A DNA stretch of 34,456 nucleotides. It comes from an uncultured Lachnospiraceae bacterium. Its GTDB lineage: Bacteria; Bacillota; Clostridia; Lachnospirales; Lachnospiraceae. A program made the position numbers and the translations under genes. This document shows, one piece after another, positions 113-11,200 of this stretch. The notes below the pieces were generated by a model. That model was given only the letters and a program-made list of their open reading frames with translations. It was not told the origin of the DNA and did not search any database. The stretch covers positions 1 through 34,456 of the forward strand of contig CAOKPU010000032.1 in assembly GCA_948470755.1 (NCBI GenBank), given 5' to 3'. How positions within the stretch are numbered: position 1 is the first letter of the stretch; the number at the start of each line of letters is the position of its first letter.

Positions 113-898
113 ATGGTTTATTTTTTGTTTTTTATAATTAGTTTTCTGGCATCTATTGCCGGGGCGATCTGCGGCATTGGGGGAGGGGTTATTATTAAGC
201 CGCTGCTGGATTCTTTTGGGCTTATGGATGTAAAGACGATTAGTTTTTTATCAGGCTGTACAGTACTTGCCATGAGTACATATTCTTTTGTTGTTTCCAA
301 GATGAAAAAGGAATCTTTGGTGGATATGAGGATCGGGACTCCCCTGGCAGTGGGGGCGGCCATAGGCGGGGTACTTGGTAAAAGCCTGTTTCAGGCGTTG
401 GTACGGTCTTTTGACCAGGATTATGTGGGGGCTATCCAGGCAGGATGTCTGTTGGCGGTTACTTTAGGGACGTTGGTTTATACGGTTTATAAGGCGAAGG
501 TGAAAACGCTGCAGGTGACAAACCTTTTGGCATGTCTGCTGGTAGGGCTGGTTCTCGGGGTGATGTCTTCCTTCCTTGGGATTGGGGGAGGGCCGATTAA
601 CCTTGTGGTCCTTTTTTATTTCTTTTCTATGACTACAAAGACCGCAGCCCAGAATTCCCTGTATATCATATTGTTTTCCCAGATCACCAGTTTGTTGAAC
701 TCAATTTTTACGTCCACAGTCCCGGCTTTTTCCGTTTTTCTTTTGGCATTGATGGCTGCGGGAGGGATCCTTGGCGGGTTCTGCGGCAGGAAAGTAAATA
801 AAAAGATTGACGACCGTAAAGTTGATATGCTTTTTATGGGGCTGATGGTGGTCATAATCTTCATTAATATTTATAATATGTACCGGTTTCTTGCCTGA
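113..898 (+). CDS. TauE/SafE-family sulfite/sulfate exporter (membrane permease)
   Basis: This 261-residue protein is almost entirely hydrophobic and has two related halves. Each half contains the glycine motif typical of the TauE/SafE (DUF81) family: GIGGGVIIKP near residue 21 and LGIGGGPINL near residue 155. The family is known for transport of sulfite, sulfate, sulfonates or sulfoacetate across the cytoplasmic membrane, usually outward. The ATG at 113 follows a GGAGGATGAGGGT ribosome site. It precedes a sulfatase maturase by 52 bases with no terminator, and a sulfatase lies downstream, so the inferred job is to export the sulfate or sulfite released from an imported organosulfate. The direction and exact anion cannot be read from the sequence. 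Its promoter is not evident in the first 112 bases and may lie outside the window. Confidence 0.87.
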   Translation: MVYFLFFIISFLASIAGAICGIGGGVIIKPLLDSFGLMDVKTISFLSGCTVLAMSTYSFVVSKMKKESLVDMRIGTPLAVGAAIGGVLGKSLFQALVRSFDQDYVGAIQAGCLLAVTLGTLVYTVYKAKVKTLQVTNLLACLLVGLVLGVMSSFLGIGGGPINLVVLFYFFSMTTKTAAQNSLYIILFSQITSLLNSIFTSTVPAFSVFLLALMAAGGILGGFCGRKVNKKIDDRKVDMLFMGLMVVIIFINIYNMYRFLA

Positions 899-950
899 CG
901 AGATCCGGATGTCAAAGAGCCTTTTTTAAAAAAGAAAGGATAGGAGAGAT

Positions 951-2069
951 ATGAGAAATATCAGTGTGTTGATAAAACCGGCATCCGGGATGTGCAATAT
1001 GCGATGCGAATATTGTTTTTATCACGATGAGGCGAAAAACAGGCAAGTGGAGTCTTACGGATTGATGTCGGAAGAAACTTTGGAACGGGTTGTGGAAAAG
1101 GCATTGGCTTTTTCAGATGACTCCTGTTCATTTACTTTTCAGGGAGGGGAGCCTTTTTTGCGGGGGCTTTCTTTTTTTCGGAAAGCGATAGAACTTCAGA
1201 AGAAATACAACGTTAAGAATCTGCGGATTTTTAATGCAATTCAGACAAATGGGACATGCATTGACGATAAATGGGCAGAATTTTTAAAAGAGAATCATTT
1301 TCTGGTGGGGGTTTCCCTGGATGGGACGGAGTTTACCCACGACTCGTTCCGCGTGGATGCAGGAGGAGAAGGCACTTTCCTGAAAGTAATGGAGGGGATT
1401 GGGAAGCTTAAGGAGTATCAAGTGGATTTTAATATATTGACAGTAGTGAATGCTGTAACCGCAAAAAAAATACCGAGGATTTATGAGTTTTACAAACAAA
1501 ACGGTTTTCGGCATCTTCAGTTTATCCCCTGTCTGAATCCTCTGGGAAAGGAAGCGGAGCGCTTTCGGTATACATTAAGCCCGGAAGCTTACGGGCATTT
1601 TCTAAAGACTCTTTTTGATTTATGGTACAATGACTGGAAAAGGGGGAGTGTCATCCATATCCAGCAATTCGAGGAATATGTAAAGATGCTTCTTCTTATG
1701 CCGCCGGATGTATGCGGTATGAGTGGGATCTGTTCCCGCCAGCATGTGGTGGAGGCGGATGGCGGGGTATACCCCTGTGATTTTTATGTGTTGGATGAAT
1801 ATAAGCTTGGCAGCCTGAATGAGGTTTCTTTTGAGGAGATTAATAAAAAGAGGGAACAAATCCGCTTTATTGAAGAATCGGTAATTAAGGGCGGAAAATG
1901 CACTGCCTGTAAATATGCCGCGATCTGCAGGGGAGGCTGCCGGAGGCATAGGATGCCGGATAATTATTTTTGCATTTCCTACTATGGTTTTTTCGATTAT
2001 GCAATCTGCAGATTGGAAGAAATCGCTGTCTGGCATCAGAAAAATCACCAAACATCCGGAAATGTCTGA
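951..2069 (+). CDS. Anaerobic sulfatase-maturating enzyme (radical SAM/SPASM, anSME)
   Basis: This enzyme converts the active-site Cys or Ser of a sulfatase to formylglycine using S-adenosylmethionine and iron-sulfur clusters, without oxygen. Cys15, Cys19 and Cys22 in the motif CNMRCEYCFYHDE form the radical SAM CX3CX2C site. A glycine motif, FTFQGGEP, follows. The C-terminal SPASM part contains CGMSGIC, the family stretch VVEADGGVYPCDFYVLDEY, and a final CTACKYAAICRGGC cluster, which is the pattern of auxiliary 4Fe-4S ligation in anSME. The length of 372 residues is normal. The ATG at 951 follows AAAGGATAGGAGAG. The cognate substrate is probably the Cys-type sulfatase at 5413-6765 in the same locus. 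The gene acts in the cytoplasm and points to an anaerobic host. Confidence 0.92.
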   Translation: MRNISVLIKPASGMCNMRCEYCFYHDEAKNRQVESYGLMSEETLERVVEKALAFSDDSCSFTFQGGEPFLRGLSFFRKAIELQKKYNVKNLRIFNAIQTNGTCIDDKWAEFLKENHFLVGVSLDGTEFTHDSFRVDAGGEGTFLKVMEGIGKLKEYQVDFNILTVVNAVTAKKIPRIYEFYKQNGFRHLQFIPCLNPLGKEAERFRYTLSPEAYGHFLKTLFDLWYNDWKRGSVIHIQQFEEYVKMLLLMPPDVCGMSGICSRQHVVEADGGVYPCDFYVLDEYKLGSLNEVSFEEINKKREQIRFIEESVIKGGKCTACKYAAICRGGCRRHRMPDNYFCISYYGFFDYAICRLEEIAVWHQKNHQTSGNV

Positions 2070-2119
2070 CAGCAGTAGTTTATATTATGACCAATTATTT
2101 TGCTGATATTAGACAAGAT

Positions 2120-2146
2120 TTGTAGAAAATAGACTATTTCGTACAA
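2120..2146. promoter_or_regulatory. Candidate operator: 12-bp-arm inverted repeat upstream of the transporter operon
   Basis: The left arm TTGTAGAAAATA (2120-2131) and right arm TATTTCGTACAA (2135-2146) are complementary at 10 of 12 positions around the centre GAC. The site lies about 27 bases before the proposed -35 box and 124 bases before the receptor gene. Dimeric GntR-type regulators bind palindromes of this size, and one is encoded at the end of the operon. Assignment to that regulator is inference. Confidence 0.45.
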
Positions 2147-2172
2147 CTTTTTAAAGAAACTGTAGAAACTTG

Positions 2173-2202
2173 TTGAGGGGGCAAATTATAATATGCTATA
2201 TT
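2173..2202 (+). promoter_or_regulatory. Candidate sigma-A promoter of the transporter-sulfatase operon
   Basis: A TTGAGG -35 box (2173-2178) and a TATATT -10 box (2197-2202) are separated by 18 bases. This places a start site about 60 bases before the receptor gene. A small palindrome, ACATC-GAT-GATGT, lies just downstream at 2211-2223. The -35 box is one or two bases off consensus, so the call is moderate. Confidence 0.5.
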
Positions 2203-2269
2203 GAAATCACATCGATGATGTCCGTAAGACCTATAGGGATTGTTAGAAAATTGTGAAGGAGATGTGAAG

Positions 2270-3235
2270 ATGAAAAAGAGAATATTAAGCAGCATTTTAG
2301 CCCTTACAATGGCCGCAGGGTTATTGGCAGGCTGCGGCGGGAGCAAGACTGCAACCTGGACTGTAACTTGTCCATGGGCTCCATCGGGAGTGGCCGCAAT
2401 GGTAAGTCAAAAGGCGGCGGCTATGTCAACGGATTATTCTGAAAATATTATCCTTGTAGCTGATGCGATAAAAGGCGATGCGGCTACTGTGAATACGTGG
2501 GTAGCGGATACAAAAGCAGATGATACGGAGCTGGTATTTGCAGGAGAAGGGCTTTTTTCCATTACTTCTATTTTGGATCCGGCAAAGCTGCAATTTACGT
2601 ATGATGATTTTATGTTTGTAGAAAACCTGTATTCTTCCGTATTTGTTATGTCTGCGGATGCAAAGCTGAATATTAAGGGTATTGAAGATTTGAAGGTTTA
2701 TGCGGAAGGCGTTGACGAAATCAGCGTGGCGGCAAACGGCGCAACCAGTTCCGAGGCATTTTTAGCGGCGGCGCTTTTTGGCTCCATGGGTTTTGGGGAC
2801 AAATTAAAGATTACTCCTTACAGTTCCGCGGCGGAAGCGGCACAGGCAGTGGCAAGAGGGGAGACGAATTTTGCGGTTTCCCATCAGTCCCAGATCCTGG
2901 AGACATATCAGCAGGGCGGAGTTACCATTGTTTGTGCATTTGACGGCGAGGATATTAGCGAAGGGGAATTTGCAGGAGTAGAGGGTGTAGGGAAATACGG
3001 ATATCCTTACTTCCGCAACCGTTGCTTCGTTCTGGCGCGCTCCGGAACCAAGGCTGAAACAGTAGCGGAGTTAAAAAAGTTATACGATGATATACTTGCA
3101 AACGATGAAATGTCGGCTTGGCTGAACGATACTATGATGTTGGAAGTGGATACGATGAGCGAAGCGGACGTTCAGGAACATATTCAAAATGTGCAGGATA
3201 TTGTAAATGAATATTATGACATTGTTGTAGGCTAA
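2270..3235 (+). CDS. Tripartite tricarboxylate transporter (TctC/BUG-type) substrate-binding lipoprotein
   Basis: This 321-residue secreted receptor begins with a lipoprotein signal peptide (positively charged MKKR, hydrophobic stretch, lipobox LAGC with Cys22), so in a Gram-positive cell it is anchored to the outer face of the membrane. The body resembles the TctC/BUG family: an early TVTCPWAPSG segment where the family has its ligand-loop motif, and a two-lobed periplasmic-binding fold. It is followed by the small and large membrane subunits of the same transporter type. BUG receptors usually bind carboxylates or other small organic anions; here the ligand is inferred to be a small organosulfate because of the sulfatase downstream. 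The ATG at 2270 was chosen over an upstream in-frame codon because GAAGGAGATG lies directly before it and the signal peptide starts there. Confidence 0.85.
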   Translation: MKKRILSSILALTMAAGLLAGCGGSKTATWTVTCPWAPSGVAAMVSQKAAAMSTDYSENIILVADAIKGDAATVNTWVADTKADDTELVFAGEGLFSITSILDPAKLQFTYDDFMFVENLYSSVFVMSADAKLNIKGIEDLKVYAEGVDEISVAANGATSSEAFLAAALFGSMGFGDKLKITPYSSAAEAAQAVARGETNFAVSHQSQILETYQQGGVTIVCAFDGEDISEGEFAGVEGVGKYGYPYFRNRCFVLARSGTKAETVAELKKLYDDILANDEMSAWLNDTMMLEVDTMSEADVQEHIQNVQDIVNEYYDIVVG

Positions 3236-3250
3236 TCGAACCTCTTCATA

Positions 3251-3287
3251 GGATGGACGGGACCGGATAGGACTTGCCCATCCTTTT
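3251..3287 (+). terminator. Intercistronic terminator-like hairpin between receptor and membrane subunits
   Basis: GGATGG (3251-3256) pairs with CCATCC (3278-3283) and is followed by TTTT. Partial termination here would give more mRNA for the receptor than for the membrane subunits, as is common in binding-protein transporters. Confidence 0.6.
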
Positions 3288-3352
3288 GTTAATATAGGGA
3301 TAGTCTGTGAAGCGGGGTGTCCGTTGTTTTCATATGGAAAGGAGCTTTATAT

Positions 3353-3880
3353 ATGGAAGGGAAACAAAGCTGGATGGAGCGTTTGGACAGGAAAAGGGAT
3401 GAAATCGGGGAAAAACTGGTTCAAAAAGAAATAAATCTCCCCACCGAACTGATTACGGGAATACTGTTCCTTTTGCTTGGGATCCTGACGCTTGTGATTA
3501 TGCCGGGCCAGGTGAAAGTGTCGGATACGGATGTGGTAAACGGCAGGGCGTTTCCGACATTGCTTATGGTAGTTATGATGATATGCAGCGGCATTGTGTT
3601 GGTGAAGGAATTGTATCAGGTTTTTGTAAAAAAACAACCATTGACGACAAAGAAAGTAAATCTTCTCGTGGAAGTGAAGGCTTTGGAAATTCTGGCGATT
3701 TTAGTTTTGACTTATATAATCTGTGCCATAACCGATTTGTTTGTAATCGGGGCTGTATTCTGCAGCCTTGGCTTTCTTGTTTATTTTCGCTGCAGGAAGG
3801 TAAGCTATTATGCAATTACCCTGACGGTTGCAGTATTGATTTGGGTGGCGTTCCGTTTCGGGCTTGGGGTTAATTTTTAA
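3353..3880 (+). CDS. Tripartite tricarboxylate transporter small membrane subunit (TctB-type)
   Basis: This 175-residue protein has a charged N-terminal segment of about 35 residues followed by four hydrophobic segments, the usual layout of the TctB subunit (4 membrane helices). It sits between the receptor gene and the 498-residue TctA-like subunit, which is the standard order for this transporter class. The TctB subunit is needed for transport, but its exact role in the complex is poorly defined. The ATG at 3353 is preceded by GGAAAGGAGC; an upstream in-frame GTG at 3317 has no ribosome site. The long charged cytoplasmic N-terminus (residues 1-30, rich in Lys, Arg and Glu) is somewhat longer than in many TctB proteins. 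Confidence 0.8.
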   Translation: MEGKQSWMERLDRKRDEIGEKLVQKEINLPTELITGILFLLLGILTLVIMPGQVKVSDTDVVNGRAFPTLLMVVMMICSGIVLVKELYQVFVKKQPLTTKKVNLLVEVKALEILAILVLTYIICAITDLFVIGAVFCSLGFLVYFRCRKVSYYAITLTVAVLIWVAFRFGLGVNF

Positions 3881-3898
3881 GGAAGGAGGAGTTTGTCT

Positions 3899-5395
3899 AT
3901 GTTGGAGTATATTGTTCCTGCTCTTCAGCATTTGTTTACGCTGGAAAATTTTCTTTGGATAAATATAGGTGTGTTTATCGGTTCGGTTTTTGCGGCAATT
4001 CCGGGATTATCGGTTATTCTCTGCGTTATTTTGTTCCTTCCTTTTACTTATAGGATGACGGCGATTCCAGGGATGATGTTTTTGCTCGGCATTTATTGTG
4101 CGGGCGGTTATGGGGGAAGCGTATCCGCGATACTGATCAATACGCCGGGTACGCCTCATGCGGCGGCGACGATGATGGACGGGCATCCGCTTTCCAGGAA
4201 CGGGAGGACGAAAGCCGCGTTGAAGATCGCGCTTTATGCGTCTGCCTTCGGCGGCGTTTTTTCGGCATTGATGCTTTTGTTCTTAGGGCCGCAAGTGGCG
4301 CAGATAGCAGCGCAGTTGGGGACGGCGGAATATTTTATGGTATGTCTGTTTGGATTGACGATTATTGCCGGAGTGTCGGGAAAAAGCATGATTAAGGGAA
4401 TAATAGCGGCGTGTATTGGGCTTTTAATCTCCTGCATCGGAGCGGATCCTATGACAAGTTATGACAGATTTACTTTTGGCGTTCCGCGTTTGTACCTTGG
4501 GCTGGATCTCGCTATTTGCCTGATCGGGTTGTTTGCCCTTGTGGAGGTGCTGGCAAAAGCGGAAAAGAAGCCTGGGCAGCTTATTTTGGATTCAAAAAAG
4601 ATGAACGATAATGGGGAAATTACAAAAGATGAATTTAAGAGGATGATACGTCCCACAATCCTTTCTTCCATTATCGGCGTTTTGGTCGGCATTATTCCCG
4701 GCACGGGGGCTTCGGAGGCTTCGTGGTTTAGTTATGACAGGGCAAAAGCGATGTCTAAACATAAAGAAGAGTTCGGCCATGGCTCAGTCGAGGGGATTGC
4801 TGCCGCGGAATCGGCCAACAACGCCGTAACGGGGGCGACTTTGATCCCATTACTTACAATGGGGATCCCCGGGGACGGAACGGTAGCGATCATGCTTTCC
4901 GCGCTGATGATCAACGGGCTAAACCCGGGGCTGAGCCTGTTTACAACCCAAGGCGACATTATGTATGCAATTATGATCGGCCTTGTATTTGTCAATTTGT
5001 TTATGTTGCTTCAGGGGACTTTCCTGACCCGGCTTTTTGCCAAGGTAGTGTCTATCCCGCAGGAAATACTGACTCCGATCATTGTCCTTTTTTGTTTTGC
5101 GGGTGCGTATTCCGTAAATAAAAATTACTTTGACGTCGGCGTGGCATTGATCTTTGCTGTTATCGCTTGGCTGCTCCGGAAGCTGGATATGCCTCCTGTC
5201 CCCATTCTTTTGGGGATGGTGCTTGGGAATATGACGGAAACGAATTTCCGCCGCGCGCTGCTGATATCAAACGGCAGTCCGAAGATTTTCGTGAGCAGCA
5301 TTTATTGCATTATTTTTGTGATTCTTACCGTTCTTGCGGTAGCGACGTTGATTAGGAGTAAAATGAAAGAGGCAAAGGGAGAAACGAAGAGATAG
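3899..5395 (+). CDS. Tripartite tricarboxylate transporter large permease subunit (TctA-type)
   Basis: This 498-residue membrane protein has about 12 hydrophobic segments and carries the two glycine/proline signature regions of the TctA family. They are GGYGGSVSAILINTPGTPHAA near residue 70, and IIPGTGASEASWFSYDRAK followed by NNAVTGATLIPLLTMGIPGDG in the second half. It forms the translocation pore and is driven by an ion gradient. The ATG at 3899 is placed seven bases after GGAAGGAGGAG; a TTG six bases earlier is too close to that site. The stop codon is immediately followed by the ribosome site of the sulfatase gene, so the two are almost certainly co-transcribed and translationally close. 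The substrate is inferred from the sulfatase neighbour. Confidence 0.93.
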   Translation: MLEYIVPALQHLFTLENFLWINIGVFIGSVFAAIPGLSVILCVILFLPFTYRMTAIPGMMFLLGIYCAGGYGGSVSAILINTPGTPHAAATMMDGHPLSRNGRTKAALKIALYASAFGGVFSALMLLFLGPQVAQIAAQLGTAEYFMVCLFGLTIIAGVSGKSMIKGIIAACIGLLISCIGADPMTSYDRFTFGVPRLYLGLDLAICLIGLFALVEVLAKAEKKPGQLILDSKKMNDNGEITKDEFKRMIRPTILSSIIGVLVGIIPGTGASEASWFSYDRAKAMSKHKEEFGHGSVEGIAAAESANNAVTGATLIPLLTMGIPGDGTVAIMLSALMINGLNPGLSLFTTQGDIMYAIMIGLVFVNLFMLLQGTFLTRLFAKVVSIPQEILTPIIVLFCFAGAYSVNKNYFDVGVALIFAVIAWLLRKLDMPPVPILLGMVLGNMTETNFRRALLISNGSPKIFVSSIYCIIFVILTVLAVATLIRSKMKEAKGETKR

Positions 5396-5412
5396 TGGAG
5401 GTAAGTGAAATT

Positions 5413-6765
5413 ATGGCATATAATATAATTTTTTATTTTACGGATCAGCAAAGGGCGGATACCTGCGGATGTTATGGGCAGCCGTTGGATATTACGCCTA
5501 ACTTGGACCGTCTTGCATCGGAGGGGATAAAGTTTGAAAACGCTTTTTCCCCGCAGCCCGTCTGCGGGCCCTGTCGAGCGCTTTTCCAGACGGGGAAATA
5601 TCCGACGGAAACCGGATGCTTTAGGAATAATATCATGCTTCCTGCAGGGGTAAAAACGTTGGCGGATTACATAGAGGAAGCCGGATATGAGACGGCTTAT
5701 ATTGGGAAATGGCATTTGGCCAGTGATGGGGAATTGGAAAAGCCGCCTGCCATCGATCATACGATTACTCCCATACCGCGGGAACTAAGGGGAGGCTATA
5801 CAGGCTTTTGGCGTACTGCGGATGTATTGGAATTCACTTCCCACGGCTATGATGGATATGTGTTTGACGAAAACAACAATCGGATAGATTTTAAAGGTTA
5901 TAGGGCGGATTGCATCACTGATCTGGCATTGGATTTTTTTGAGGAAAGGGATACGGGAAAACCGTTTTTTATGACGATTTCCCATATCGAGCCTCATCAT
6001 CAAAATGACCGCAAGCATTACGAAGGGCCGGAAGGGTCAAAAGAAAAGTTTAAGGACTTCATACTGCCGGAAGATTTAAAGGTTCTAAAAGGGGATGCGG
6101 CGGAAGAATATCCGGATTATCTGGGGGCCTGTGAAAGGTTGGATCAGAATTTGGGTAAATTAATCAATAAATTAAAAGAAAAAGGCTTATATGAAGATAC
6201 GATAATCATTTTTGCGGCGGATCACGGCTCCCATTTTAGGACGAGAAACAGGGACGGACATTTGAATGGCTATGATGATTACAAACGTTCTTGCCACGAT
6301 GCCTGTCTGAAGGTGCCGCTTGTAATTGCAGGAGGGCCTTATAAGGGAGGCGCGGCGGTGGAGGAACTTGTAAGTACGGAAAGCCTTCCTAAAACTATTT
6401 TGGCGATGGCGGGAGTGGATGTAGGCGATGCTATGATAGGGGAGAACCTGCTGGACGTAGTGGAAAAAAAGGATGGGAAGCGTCTGAACCAAGTCTTTGC
6501 CCAAATATCGGAAAGCAGGATTGGAAGGTGCATCCGCACTCCCAGGTATACCTATTCCGTCTATGCGCCGGGTATGAATGGGGGCGAAGCTTCGTCATCG
6601 GATGTTTATGCGGATGATTTCCTGTATGATATGGAAAAAGACCCGTATCAGTTGAAGAATGTGGTGGATAGCCCGGAATATAAAGCCGTTAAAACGGATA
6701 TGAGGAAACGGTTGTTGGAGTGGATAGAAAAGGCGGAAGGAAAGAGGCCGGTTATTACAGATTAA
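5413..6765 (+). CDS. Type I (formylglycine) sulfatase, cytoplasmic
   Basis: This 450-residue alkaline-phosphatase-superfamily enzyme hydrolyses sulfate esters. Visible active-site elements are TDQQR (residues 10-14, metal-binding Asp11), the formylglycine motif Cys51-Gly-Pro-Cys-Arg55 followed by a GKYP segment, GKWH (98-101), and DHGSH with Asp270-His271. The C-terminus has the LYDMEKDPYQLKN segment typical of this subgroup (DUF4976-like region). No signal peptide or membrane segment precedes the catalytic domain, so the enzyme should work in the cytoplasm on an imported substrate. Cys51 needs conversion to formylglycine, which the maturase at 951-2069 can supply without oxygen. The ATG at 5413 is ten bases after GGAGGT; the GTG at 5395 overlaps the previous stop and is less likely. 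Substrate is unknown. Confidence 0.93.
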   Translation: MAYNIIFYFTDQQRADTCGCYGQPLDITPNLDRLASEGIKFENAFSPQPVCGPCRALFQTGKYPTETGCFRNNIMLPAGVKTLADYIEEAGYETAYIGKWHLASDGELEKPPAIDHTITPIPRELRGGYTGFWRTADVLEFTSHGYDGYVFDENNNRIDFKGYRADCITDLALDFFEERDTGKPFFMTISHIEPHHQNDRKHYEGPEGSKEKFKDFILPEDLKVLKGDAAEEYPDYLGACERLDQNLGKLINKLKEKGLYEDTIIIFAADHGSHFRTRNRDGHLNGYDDYKRSCHDACLKVPLVIAGGPYKGGAAVEELVSTESLPKTILAMAGVDVGDAMIGENLLDVVEKKDGKRLNQVFAQISESRIGRCIRTPRYTYSVYAPGMNGGEASSSDVYADDFLYDMEKDPYQLKNVVDSPEYKAVKTDMRKRLLEWIEKAEGKRPVITD

Positions 6766-6777
6766 GGAGGCGTCCTG

Positions 6778-7896
6778 ATGGGAACTTTGGATAAGAAATC
6801 GGAGCAGGCTTATCTTTGGCTGCGGGCATATATCGATGAGAATAAGTTTGCAAATAATTCAAAGCTCCCATCGGAAAATGTAATCAGCCACCGGCTTTCG
6901 GTAAGCCGGGAAACCGTGCGTACGGCATTGTCCAGACTGGCGGAAGAAGGGCTGATCCGCAAAGTAAAAGGGAGCGGGACTTACATTAATAAAGATGTGG
7001 CGTTGACAAAGGAGCTTGGCGGGAACAGCGGTACGATCAAGGTAGGATTAGTCTTGCAAGGACAGGATACTGACGCCAATTCCACCCTGATCGAAGGGAT
7101 ACGGAGCGTGCTTTTGGCCGATAAGGTGGATTTGCGTATCTTTTTGACGGATAATAAGTTTGCGAATGAAAGGCGTTGCCTGCAGACGGTGGTTCATCAG
7201 GATTTTCAAGGGTTTATCGTAGATGGTGTAAAGGCGAGCCTGATGAATCCCAATTTAGACTGTTATAAACAGATTTATCAAAAGAAGATACCGGTTATCT
7301 TTTATAACAATTATTATAAGGAGCTGAATTATCCAAGGGTTACTGTAAATGACAAGCAATGCGCTGACCGCTTGCTGGGGCTGTTGATTAAAGCCGGGCA
7401 TAGGCATATTGCGGGAGTGTTTATTTATGATAATTATCAAAGTATTGAAAAGTTCCAGGGGATGGCGGCGGCGCTGAAACGGCATGGAGTGGAATTCCAG
7501 GATGATTATATTAAATGGTGTGTTTCCAATGAAGCGCATGATGATCGTTTCGCCCGTTCCATTGATAAGTTCTTGAAAGGGATCCCGCGTTGCAGCGCCA
7601 TTGTATGTTGTAATTATATGATCTACCGCCTGGTGCGGCATGTGTTGAACAAACAGGGGAAAAAGGTGCCGGAGGATTATTCGCTTGTGTGTTTTGATTA
7701 TTCGGGAGGCAATTGGGAGGAGGAAGGCGTGACGTGTTCTGTTCATCAGGGGTATCAGATTGGGCAGCAGGTGGCGGAAAGGCTTTTGAAGATGATTGAA
7801 CGCAGGGATTGCAAGGGGCAGGATTATTCATGCATTATGCCGCCTAAAATCTATATTGGGAGTTCCGTAGGACAAGTAAATAAAAAACAGCAATAA
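6778..7896 (+). CDS. GntR-type transcription regulator with LacI/periplasmic-binding-like sensor domain
   Basis: Residues 1-75 form a GntR winged helix (KLPSENVISHRLSVSRETVRTAL, then RLAEEGLIRKVKGSGTYI). Residues from about 85 to the end resemble the LacI/periplasmic-binding fold: VGLVLQG at the start, the VTVNDKQCADRLLGLLIKAGHRHIAG segment, and a late VCFDYSG segment. This is the AraR-like architecture, usually a repressor released by a small sugar-type ligand. The gene starts 12 bases after the sulfatase stop, with AAGGAGG in front, so it is the last gene of the operon and may control it. A ligand of sugar type would hint at a sulfated sugar, but this is inference. Its stop codon lies inside the terminator hairpin. 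Confidence 0.88.
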   Translation: MGTLDKKSEQAYLWLRAYIDENKFANNSKLPSENVISHRLSVSRETVRTALSRLAEEGLIRKVKGSGTYINKDVALTKELGGNSGTIKVGLVLQGQDTDANSTLIEGIRSVLLADKVDLRIFLTDNKFANERRCLQTVVHQDFQGFIVDGVKASLMNPNLDCYKQIYQKKIPVIFYNNYYKELNYPRVTVNDKQCADRLLGLLIKAGHRHIAGVFIYDNYQSIEKFQGMAAALKRHGVEFQDDYIKWCVSNEAHDDRFARSIDKFLKGIPRCSAIVCCNYMIYRLVRHVLNKQGKKVPEDYSLVCFDYSGGNWEEEGVTCSVHQGYQIGQQVAERLLKMIERRDCKGQDYSCIMPPKIYIGSSVGQVNKKQQ

Positions 7897-7923
7897 TCCG
7901 GGAAAATGGATGATTGCTGTTTT
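7884..7923. terminator. Bidirectional terminator shared by the regulator and the HD-GYP gene
   Basis: AAAACAGCAAT (7884-7894) and ATTGCTGTTTT (7913-7923) are perfect complements; ATCC/GGAT extends the stem around a short loop, with one A/G mismatch. The A and T runs at both ends make it work for either strand. The regulator's TAA stop (7894-7896) is within the stem. It separates two converging genes. Confidence 0.85.
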
Positions 7924-7952
7924 GCAGCGCGTCCGGCGGTACGCGTTTCAAA

Positions 7953-9205: not shown

Positions 9206-9342
9206 AATCTCTTATTCAGAGTGGTGGAGGTACATAGGACCTAAGAAGCCACGGCAACCCCTGACAAGGAAGGTGCCTGCCTGAGCGAGCAATGAGGAGC
9301 AGCGGGATATTTGGCTGCGGTGAATCGAACAATAAGAGGATT
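9206..9342 (+). ncRNA. SAM-I (S-box) riboswitch controlling metK
   Basis: The element has the S-box landmarks: CTCTTATTCAGAGTGGTGGAGG at the 5' side split across the P1/P2 junction, the GAAGCCACGGCAACC block, AAGGTGCC, an AATGAGGAGCAGC part, and a closing AATAAGAGG. P1 pairs CTCTTATT (9209-9216) with AATAAGAG (9331-9338). The 3' P1 strand AATAAGAGGA (9331-9340) can instead pair with TCCGCTTATT (9361-9370) at 9 of 10 positions. This is the antiterminator, so SAM binding should favour termination and switch metK off. Confidence 0.95.
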
Positions 9343-10897: not shown

Positions 10898-11025
10898 CCC
10901 TCAAGTAAACCAAAGCTTCGGCATGGTTTTGATCTTTGGCAAATGAATATTGTATCTATGGATTGGCTTCAGATGCACAGGACTTGTTCCTGCTGTATCC
11001 AATAATTTCCCATAGTTCCCCATTT

Positions 11026-11200
11026 AGCGCCATGTACCTGTCGGGGTGGAGAAAAGAATGGCTCTGACAGGTTGACGAGGAGGAAGGTGATCGAAAATTC
11101 GGCGGGTGCCTTCCCGTACGGCTTCCGGTACGTGATATGCCGGGGAAATATGCGGGCGACCGCAAAACAAAGACGGCATAACGGGGTTAGTGTGAGAAGT
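11026..11200 (+). ncRNA. glmS ribozyme (glucosamine-6-phosphate-activated self-cleaving RNA)
   Basis: AGCGCC at 11026-11031 contains the cleavage site (after A11026). ACCTGTC and GACAGGT form P1, followed by the highly conserved GTTGACGAGGA, then ATCGAAAATTCGGCGGGTGCC and the P2/pseudoknot region with GGAAGG/CCTTCC. A CGTACGGCTTCCGGTACG hairpin (P3) and GCAAAACAAAG with a GGGGTTAGTG tail follow, consistent with P4. It sits just before glmS, its expected place. Glucosamine-6-phosphate triggers cleavage, and the downstream mRNA is then degraded. The 3' boundary is approximate because repeats follow. Confidence 0.95.

Follow-up and report, generated by a model that had tools for sequence, protein, structure and literature searches.

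A probable sulfated-sugar scavenging locus with a tripartite tricarboxylate-type transporter in an uncultured Lachnospiraceae bacterium

Gene content and organisation of the locus

Positions 113 to 7,896 of the window analysed here (34,456 nt, the left part or the whole of contig CAOKPU010000032.1, C32) carry a candidate organosulfate import and desulfation locus of an uncultured Lachnospiraceae bacterium, whose genome assembly has 3.01 Mb in 114 contigs and is 92.5% complete. Seven genes, all on the + strand, were identified: tauE, anSME, tctC, tctB, tctA, a sulfatase gene and a regulator gene. Families and domains were called with Pfam and NCBIfam, which agreed with the gene set and positions proposed in an earlier note made from the sequence, and start codons were chosen by eye (likely ATG starts at 2270 for tctC, 3353 for tctB, 3899 for tctA and 5413 for the sulfatase). 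The features of the locus are as follows.

113..898, + strand: tauE, TauE/SafE-family membrane protein, probable sulfate/sulfite-type exporter (PF01925, 105 bits, 5.5e-30; in 18/81 loci)
951..2069, + strand: anSME, anaerobic sulfatase-maturating radical S-adenosylmethionine (SAM) enzyme (CNMRCEYC, SPASM; over the cut-offs of NF010321 and TIGR03942)
2143..2175, + strand: putative operator, inverted repeat ACAACTTT-N15-AAACTTGTTG (17/17 match)
2173..2202, + strand: promoter-like site TTGAGG-18-TATATT with TG before the second hexamer (promoter scan; overlaps the right arm of the operator)
2270..3235, + strand: tctC, lipoprotein solute-binding receptor, pincer PWAPSGVAA (PF03401, 24.8 bits, below the cut-off of 27; profile match to tripartite tricarboxylate transporter receptors in PDB)
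3353..3880, + strand: tctB, small membrane subunit (PF07331, 34.3 bits, cut-off 29.1, 3.1e-8)
3899..5395, + strand: tctA, large membrane subunit (PF01970, 500 bits, cut-off 28.9, 5.1e-150)
5413..6765, + strand: Cys-type S1 sulfatase, cytoplasmic (CGPCR; PF00884, 163 bits, 1.7e-47)
6778..7896, + strand: regulator, GntR DNA-binding domain plus LacI-type sugar-binding domain, AraR architecture (PF00392, PF13377)

The tripartite tricarboxylate transporter (TTT) was complete, as had been proposed. TctA and TctB exceeded their Pfam cut-offs, and TctC, which on its own fell short, was recognised through a profile of its orthologues that matched 11 TTT receptors in PDB (best 4.7e-18). TctC also bears a lipobox, LAGC. 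Intergenic gaps were short between tctB and tctA (18 nt), tctA and the sulfatase (17 nt), and the sulfatase and the regulator (12 nt), and amounted to 200 nt between anSME and tctC. Because this 200-nt gap contains the operator and the promoter-like site, the locus looks like two transcription units, tauE-anSME and tctC-tctB-tctA-sulfatase-regulator, the second with its own predicted promoter. The earlier description of one + strand run was thus confirmed, with the refinement that it probably comprises two units. The contig starts 112 nt 5' of tauE, where the view upstream ends.

In the host genome, the sulfatase was the sole match to PF00884, anSME was the sole protein above the TIGR03942 cut-off and TctA was the sole match at E<=1e-60. 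As each of the three stands alone in the genome at its threshold, and dozens of further genomes show the same arrangement, the gene set is more than a chance assembly.

Recurrence in other genomes

The earlier note had called for a search for co-occurrence of these components in clostridia. A scan of species genomes gave 142 matches, of which 80 loci (designated by L numbers) were kept, and 81 were annotated together with the window. TctA was present in 56 loci, anSME in 55, the regulator in 52, TctC and TctB in 50 each and TauE in 18; contig ends truncate many of the loci, and distant paralogues are counted in the figure for TctA. The arrangement recurred in dozens of gut Lachnospiraceae and Oscillospiraceae genomes, and related loci occur in spirochaetes and Pasteurella; among the hosts are Lachnospiraceae, Anaerotruncus, Faecalibacterium, Flintibacter, Hungatella, Treponema, other spirochaetes and Pasteurella canis. 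One named isolate with the locus is Anaerotruncus colihominis DSM 17241 (L015). Judged by the sulfatase, the closest relative was Lachnospiraceae bacterium 28-4 (92% identity).

Regulator and operator

The regulator was of the GntR-LacI type, as the earlier reading had it. Both PF00392 and PF13377 were found, in the layout of AraR, and the best PDB match was AraR 3tb6 (3.9e-24), with 4egy also matched. Upstream of tctC, at window positions 2143-2175, lies a fixed-spacing inverted repeat, ACAACTTT-N15-AAANTTGTTG. Among the 42 loci for which 260 nt of upstream sequence could be scored, 36 matched the repeat at no fewer than 15 of its 17 positions; when these stretches were shuffled, the score averaged about 10 of 17 and seldom rose to 15. 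The regulator is in the locus in 35 of the 36 repeat-bearing cases; in the remaining case, L071, the locus breaks off within the sulfatase gene. The repeat was missing in six loci: L061 and L064, both without a regulator in the locus; L068, L072 and L073, which belong to spirochaetes and have regulators 41-46% identical to that of the window; and L078, an exception with a regulator 59% identical. In L008, where tctC was not called, the repeat sits 5' of the sulfatase.

At 0-1 mismatch, the core of the repeat matched the host genome at this place only (the reversed-pattern control gave 1 hit), so that the AraR-like regulator apparently serves this operon alone. A wider regulon was also considered and rejected: a looser pattern, ACAACTTT-N15-AAANNTGTTG with at most one mismatch, gave 44 matches in 41 other genomes, with 37 of the 41 genomes matched, and 7 of the 44 are probably chance hits (the reversed pattern, run as a control, gave 4). 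Among the 37 presumed operators, 31 were letter-identical to sites upstream of tctC, one (L008) was upstream of the sulfatase and five were unplaced. No second operator was seen in the 41 genomes beyond chance-level matches, and neither the stretch 5' of anSME nor the 112 nt available 5' of tauE holds an operator-type repeat. A short-spaced palindrome at 2115-2151 was rejected as an operator, being not conserved in relatives.

The promoter-like site is weak when taken alone, as the scan found 22 sites where 18.8 were expected; its letters are similar across the alignment of close relatives. We infer that the regulator binds the repeat at 2143-2175, and repression is the plausible sign of regulation, since the right arm of the operator overlaps the promoter-like site.

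Downstream of the regulator, an inverted repeat noted by eye at window 7886-7924 (AACAGCAAT...ATTGCTGTT) could act as a terminator for transcripts arriving from either direction; the loop exceeds the length that the terminator scan allows.

Exporter genes and the fate of sulfate

Exporter-type genes were found in a minority of the 81 loci: TauE in 18, members of the chromate-transporter family near the sulfatase in nine (L013, L015, L030, L036, L037, L038, L044, L057 and L069) and both in two. The chromate-transporter genes occur as pairs in six loci and singly in three, and seven of the nine loci are without TauE; PF02417 was confirmed on the single copy of this family that was run. The sulfur export proposed earlier is supported as a prediction, with a sulfate-type exporter.

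An operon for sulfur assimilation, in which the sulfate is retained and the sugar is incidental, was judged highly improbable. It is favoured by a SAM riboswitch at window 9209-9338, 5' of an S-adenosylmethionine synthetase-like gene (named by eye), about 1.3-1.6 kb downstream of the locus. However, this gene has its own riboswitch and is separated from the locus by a gene on the opposite strand, the operator occurs at no other place in the host genome, and TauE and, elsewhere, the chromate-transporter-family neighbours look like exporters. As two families named for oxyanion transport occur at the same place, disposal of sulfate fits better than its assimilation.

Further downstream, a glmS ribozyme lies 5' of a glmS-like gene (window 11015-11190; gene named by eye). 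In L002, homologues of the riboswitch- and ribozyme-linked genes follow in the same order downstream of its locus.

The sulfatase and its maturase

The sulfatase carries CGPCR as its C-x-P-x-R motif, the Cys, Gly, Pro and Arg of which were invariant in 36 aligned orthologues, and no signal peptide was apparent by eye, without a predictor. Both the Cys type and the lack of a signal peptide had been noted earlier. The first catalytic motif, TDQ, begins only 10-12 residues into the called protein in 56 of the 79 orthologues called; of the other 23, two are truncated and 21 have a longer stretch before it (13 to 104 residues), which is partly due to the gene caller taking the first possible start codon. 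The maturase scored above the curated cut-offs of NF010321 (452 bits, cut-off 441) and TIGR03942 (395 bits, cut-off 349). Desulfation in the cytoplasm, following uptake of an intact organosulfate as originally suggested, is well supported by these predicted features: no apparent signal peptide, a dedicated anSME, the 12-17 nt spacing of tctA, sulfatase and regulator, and an operator unique in the genome.

The best PDB match of the sulfatase, both by sequence and by profile, was the N-acetylglucosamine-6-sulfatase 5g2v, which we take to be Bacteroides thetaiotaomicron BT4656 of subfamily S1_11. In the alignment, D-K-R of 5g2v is paired with a KR motif and a nearby Asp. The positions that align with Asp-Asp and Asp-Gln of 5g2v, presumably metal ligands, are Asp-Gln and Asp-His in 36/36 orthologues. 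Residues Q365, S367, E368, R373 and R376 (alignment numbering) are also invariant. The recognition triad of S1_11 is given as His/Asp/Arg in an excerpt of PMC10154612. Its His is likely to be the one shared by a loop in the best PDB matches, and in the window sulfatase this loop is shorter and without His (QISESRVGRCIRT). Because the metal-site residues and the loop differ despite the best PDB match, assignment to S1_11 as an N-acetylglucosamine-6-sulfatase was dropped. N-acetylglucosamine-6-sulfate (GlcNAc-6S) is one candidate substrate among several, which include N-acetylgalactosamine-6-sulfate, galactose-3-sulfate and sulfated lacto-N-biose (LNB) or galacto-N-biose (GNB).

The earlier note had also named steroids, phenols and bile-acid sulfates as substrates to be tried. 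A steroid, bile-acid, phenol or choline sulfate as substrate would accord with the matches of the sulfatase to the NCBIfam models for arylsulfatase (145 bits) and choline-sulfatase (TIGR03417, 125 bits), but these scores are far below the curated cut-offs of 481 and 433, respectively. Recognisable steroid, aromatic or betaine genes were found among 0/40 annotated neighbouring proteins, which thus gave the proposal no support, and the effector domain of the regulator is of a sugar type related to AraR. Such a substrate was therefore considered very unlikely.

Linkage to GH112 and the origin of the substrate

In 10 of the 80 loci the same sulfatase was found within about 5 kb of an ATP-binding cassette (ABC) sugar importer and a GH112 galacto/lacto-N-biose phosphorylase, against a rough expectation, based on the density of GH112, of about 0.15 loci if position alone mattered. 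Most of the ten also carry an AraC regulator. Pfam was run on the ABC and GH112 copies of L035, and those of the other loci are homologues of these. In L069 the end of the GH112 gene and the beginning of the sulfatase gene share 4 nt; in L046 the two genes are 10 nt apart and are followed by anSME. In L026, L028 and L039, anSME closes the ABC-GH112 run, which faces an intact tctC-tctB-tctA-sulfatase-regulator operon, and in L059 a permease gene lies 35 nt from the sulfatase. A GH20 gene adjoins the sulfatase-anSME pair in L056 and L058. On a sulfatase tree of 77 rows (L013, L069 and two truncated rows were left out; the sulfatase genes of L013 and L069 are open and intact), the ABC/GH112 label required four changes, at least two of them forced by well-supported branches, and a joint label required two. 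The link between sulfatase and GH112 thus arose more than once.

The association was also visible at genome level. GH112 was found in 9 of the 13 genomes of the family with the sulfatase and in 68 of the 286 without it (Fisher p = 0.001; 77/299 in total). Among 44 genomes carrying TctABC-type loci, 32 had GH112, compared with 18 of 295 genomes of the order of Anaerotruncus; the 44 genomes, which were chosen from the 80 loci and include two (L008, L063) without tctA in view, are neither phylogenetically independent nor matched to the background sets.

The host genome has three GH112 genes, one of them behind an AraC-like gene and two ABC permease genes; a 496-aa gene takes the place of the binding protein in this run and was without a match to the binding proteins of the other loci. 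No PF00728 GH20 was found in the host genome. With three GH112 genes and no such GH20, the host looks, by gene content, like a scavenger that would use mucin-type disaccharides and could not free GlcNAc-6S by a GH20 of its own. Other gut microbes could supply it: in the excerpts available, BbhII of Bifidobacterium bifidum is reported to produce free GlcNAc-6S (PMC11186840, PMC10245121), and sulfated mucin glycans are said to accumulate in the wake of Ruminococcus torques, for which no sulfatase was detected (PMC11323728).

An extra sulfatase lies in the GH112 locus of L047 (1098-2495), close to PDB 6ust and 9fo1 (labelled GalNAc-6-sulfate sulfatase, S1_16 carrageenan sulfatase), which suggests multiply sulfated substrates at that locus. 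Of the second sulfatases of L047 and L054, one points to S1_16 by these same matches and the other gave no clear family.

A sulfated sugar could also come from glycosaminoglycans and not from mucin, as N-acetylgalactosamine-6- or 4-sulfate, GlcNAc-6S or a sulfated unsaturated disaccharide. Heparan sulfate is described as another source of GlcNAc-6S (PMC10154612, in excerpt), the host genome has one GH88-family match, and Hungatella hathewayi is reported to use chondroitin sulfate (PMC9067506, in excerpt), the sulfatase of Hungatella locus L067 being 70% identical to that of the window. We nevertheless regard this origin as unlikely: the recurrent partner, GH112, splits Gal-beta-1,3-HexNAc of mucin and milk glycans, and a polysaccharide lyase or GH88 was found in 0/40 of the neighbour proteins run through Pfam, a minority of all neighbours.

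The transporter receptor

In the available part of PMC5812351, carboxylates are the commonest TTT cargo, and the receptor motif P-F-x-A-G-G-x-x-D is described as belonging to a pincer that grips the proximal carboxylate by way of two water molecules. The same source describes this motif as almost ubiquitous, although not strictly required, and hydroxyl side chains substitute for these residues in some receptors. In the receptor for alginate oligosaccharides of Vibrio sp. C42, the Thr and Asp of the motif were essential, and D26A abolished binding (PMC13390454, in excerpt). In the window TctC the pincer reads PWAPSGVAA, a placement that agrees with the profile alignment to PDB receptors, and the Asp and first Gly of the family are lost in the clostridial TctC. 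An alignment of 52 sequences, six of them truncated, left 46 that show the motif (41 of the window type and 5 paralogues); PWAPSGVAA or one of three variants, without Asp, was present in 38 of the 46. The Asp was absent from 38 of the 41 window-type sequences and retained in L064, L068 and L073 and in the five paralogous receptors. As judged from these alignments, the altered pincer would suit a ligand other than a carboxylate, but use of the substrate cannot depend on loss of the Asp, as the three loci that keep it have sulfatases 68-71% identical to that of the window.

The earlier note had suggested an organosulfate that also carries a carboxylate, and a sulfated sugar acid would be similar. 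Such a substrate would suit a family that mostly carries carboxylates, with sulfolactate among its reported substrates (PMC5812351, in excerpt), and the retained pincer Asp of L064, L068 and L073. Lactate-racemase-like and triosephosphate-isomerase-like genes near the sulfatase or transporter of L042 (3450-5811), L060 (2-2261) and L081 (5033-5983 and 12839-14272) would also accord with it; PF09861 and PF00121 were found in L060, and the copies of L042 and L081 were assigned by clustering. On the other side, the Asp and first Gly are lost from the clostridial receptors, the LNB/GNB module found in alternation with TctABC acts on neutral sugars, and the scan of 41 genomes gave no second operator above chance level. 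Since the pincer Asp is missing and the enzymes that recur by the sulfatase, GH112 and GH20, act on neutral mucin sugars, the carboxylate proposal was disfavoured and appears rather improbable.

A TctA-sulfatase neighbourhood as a general rule of the family was rejected, as hmmsearch with a sulfatase profile found a sulfatase in only 5 of 30 family TctA loci, covered to about 1.5 kb on each side of tctA so that misses are possible. Two of the five are the window and a close relative in genome G205. The TctA places with 42-46% identity that lie within about 2 kb of a sulfatase match are G149:C4 (L111), G253:C152 and G253:C134. More distant TctA sets adjoin one or two further sulfatases in L067 (5701-8850), L080, L081, L053 and L076; pairing of a TTT with a sulfatase therefore recurs outside the orthologue group of the window.

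Proposed function of the locus

On balance, the locus is probably a self-contained scavenging operon for a small sulfated sugar freed from host mucin by other gut microbes. From the gene content and its neighbours we infer the sulfated sugar as substrate, the direction of transport and the export of sulfate. The TctC lipoprotein would capture the sulfated sugar, either a monosaccharide such as GlcNAc-6S or a sulfated galacto- or lacto-N-biose, and TctAB would bring it in intact. The cytoplasmic Cys-type sulfatase, activated by the neighbouring anSME, would then hydrolyse the sulfate ester; the desulfated sugar would enter ordinary amino-sugar or galactose metabolism, and the sulfate would exit via TauE. 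The AraR-like regulator may act through the repeat upstream of tctC to keep this operon alone repressed, until binding of a sugar ligand lifts the repression.

Several observations weigh against this interpretation. GH112 was missing from the locus DNA examined in 70 of the 80 loci and from 12 of the 44 genomes searched (of unstated completeness), and the genome comparison is limited by relatedness and matching as stated above. The linkage of GH112 to the sulfatase is found in other genomes and not with the TctABC of the window, the GH112 genes of the host being on other contigs. The sulfatase lacks residues that mark subfamily S1_11, the GlcNAc-6-sulfatases. The canonical Asp pincer is retained in L064, L068 and L073, which are loci of Pasteurella and spirochaetes. 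anSME was not in view in 26 of the 81 loci, some of which are truncated. The regulator of L078 is 59% identical to that of the window, yet no operator match was found there (10/17). The GH88-family match of the host genome would also fit some use of glycosaminoglycans.

A broader proposal may be made only tentatively, with slightly less than even confidence: a TTT branch with an altered carboxylate pincer would import sulfate esters of neutral host sugars, free sulfated mucin sugars would be a public good harvested by clostridia with a single sulfatase, and the sulfatase module would swap between the TTT and an ABC/GH112 route for sulfated disaccharides. In an excerpt of a review, the bacterial sulfatases covered for sulfated mucin glycans are those of Bacteroides and kin, and such glycans are described as key nutrients and colonisation factors (PMC10154612). 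If the scavenging function is correct, the module would let dozens of gut clostridia live on sulfated sugars left behind by primary degraders, and the TTT family would gain a testable candidate for a carboxylate-free ligand. The locus supplies an operator, a regulator and a one-sulfatase genome for testing the prediction.

Comparison with known systems

No published description of this exact locus was found among the matches listed in the literature search, to which most subscription journals were beyond reach. The earlier statement that no described pathway has exactly this set therefore held within those matches, with the qualification that ats2 of Bifidobacterium breve reportedly follows a similar logic with a different transporter. 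The ats1/ats2 loci of B. breve UCC2003 reportedly combine a cytoplasmic sulfatase, an anSME, a transporter and a local sugar-type regulator, and the strain is said to grow on GlcNAc-6-sulfate freed by other species. The window locus has the same four kinds of component. The ats loci reportedly differ in having another type of transporter and a ROK-type regulator, and they belong to a different phylum; the likeness drawn here is one of gene content.

The regulator resembles AraR (3tb6, 4egy) in its GntR DNA-binding domain fused to a LacI-type sugar-binding domain; it would differ in a long-spaced ACAACTTT/AAANTTGT operator and an apparently single target operon. The sulfatase shares the S1 family and the KR motif with its best PDB match, the S1_11 enzyme 5g2v, whereas Asp-Gln/Asp-His replace Asp-Asp/Asp-Gln, the His of the recognition loop was not found and there is no apparent signal peptide. 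The transporter shares the TctA, TctB and TctC families with SlcHFG, which carries the sulfonate sulfolactate (PMC5812351), and with the TTT of Vibrio sp. C42, which carries acidic sugars (PMC13390454). In the parts of these two papers available, the named TTT ligands are nearly all carboxylated; in contrast, the clostridial TctC is without the pincer Asp on which binding by the Vibrio receptor depends. The locus is thus most likely a known scheme, comprising an importer, a cytoplasmic sulfatase, its maturase and a local regulator, here with an unusual importer.

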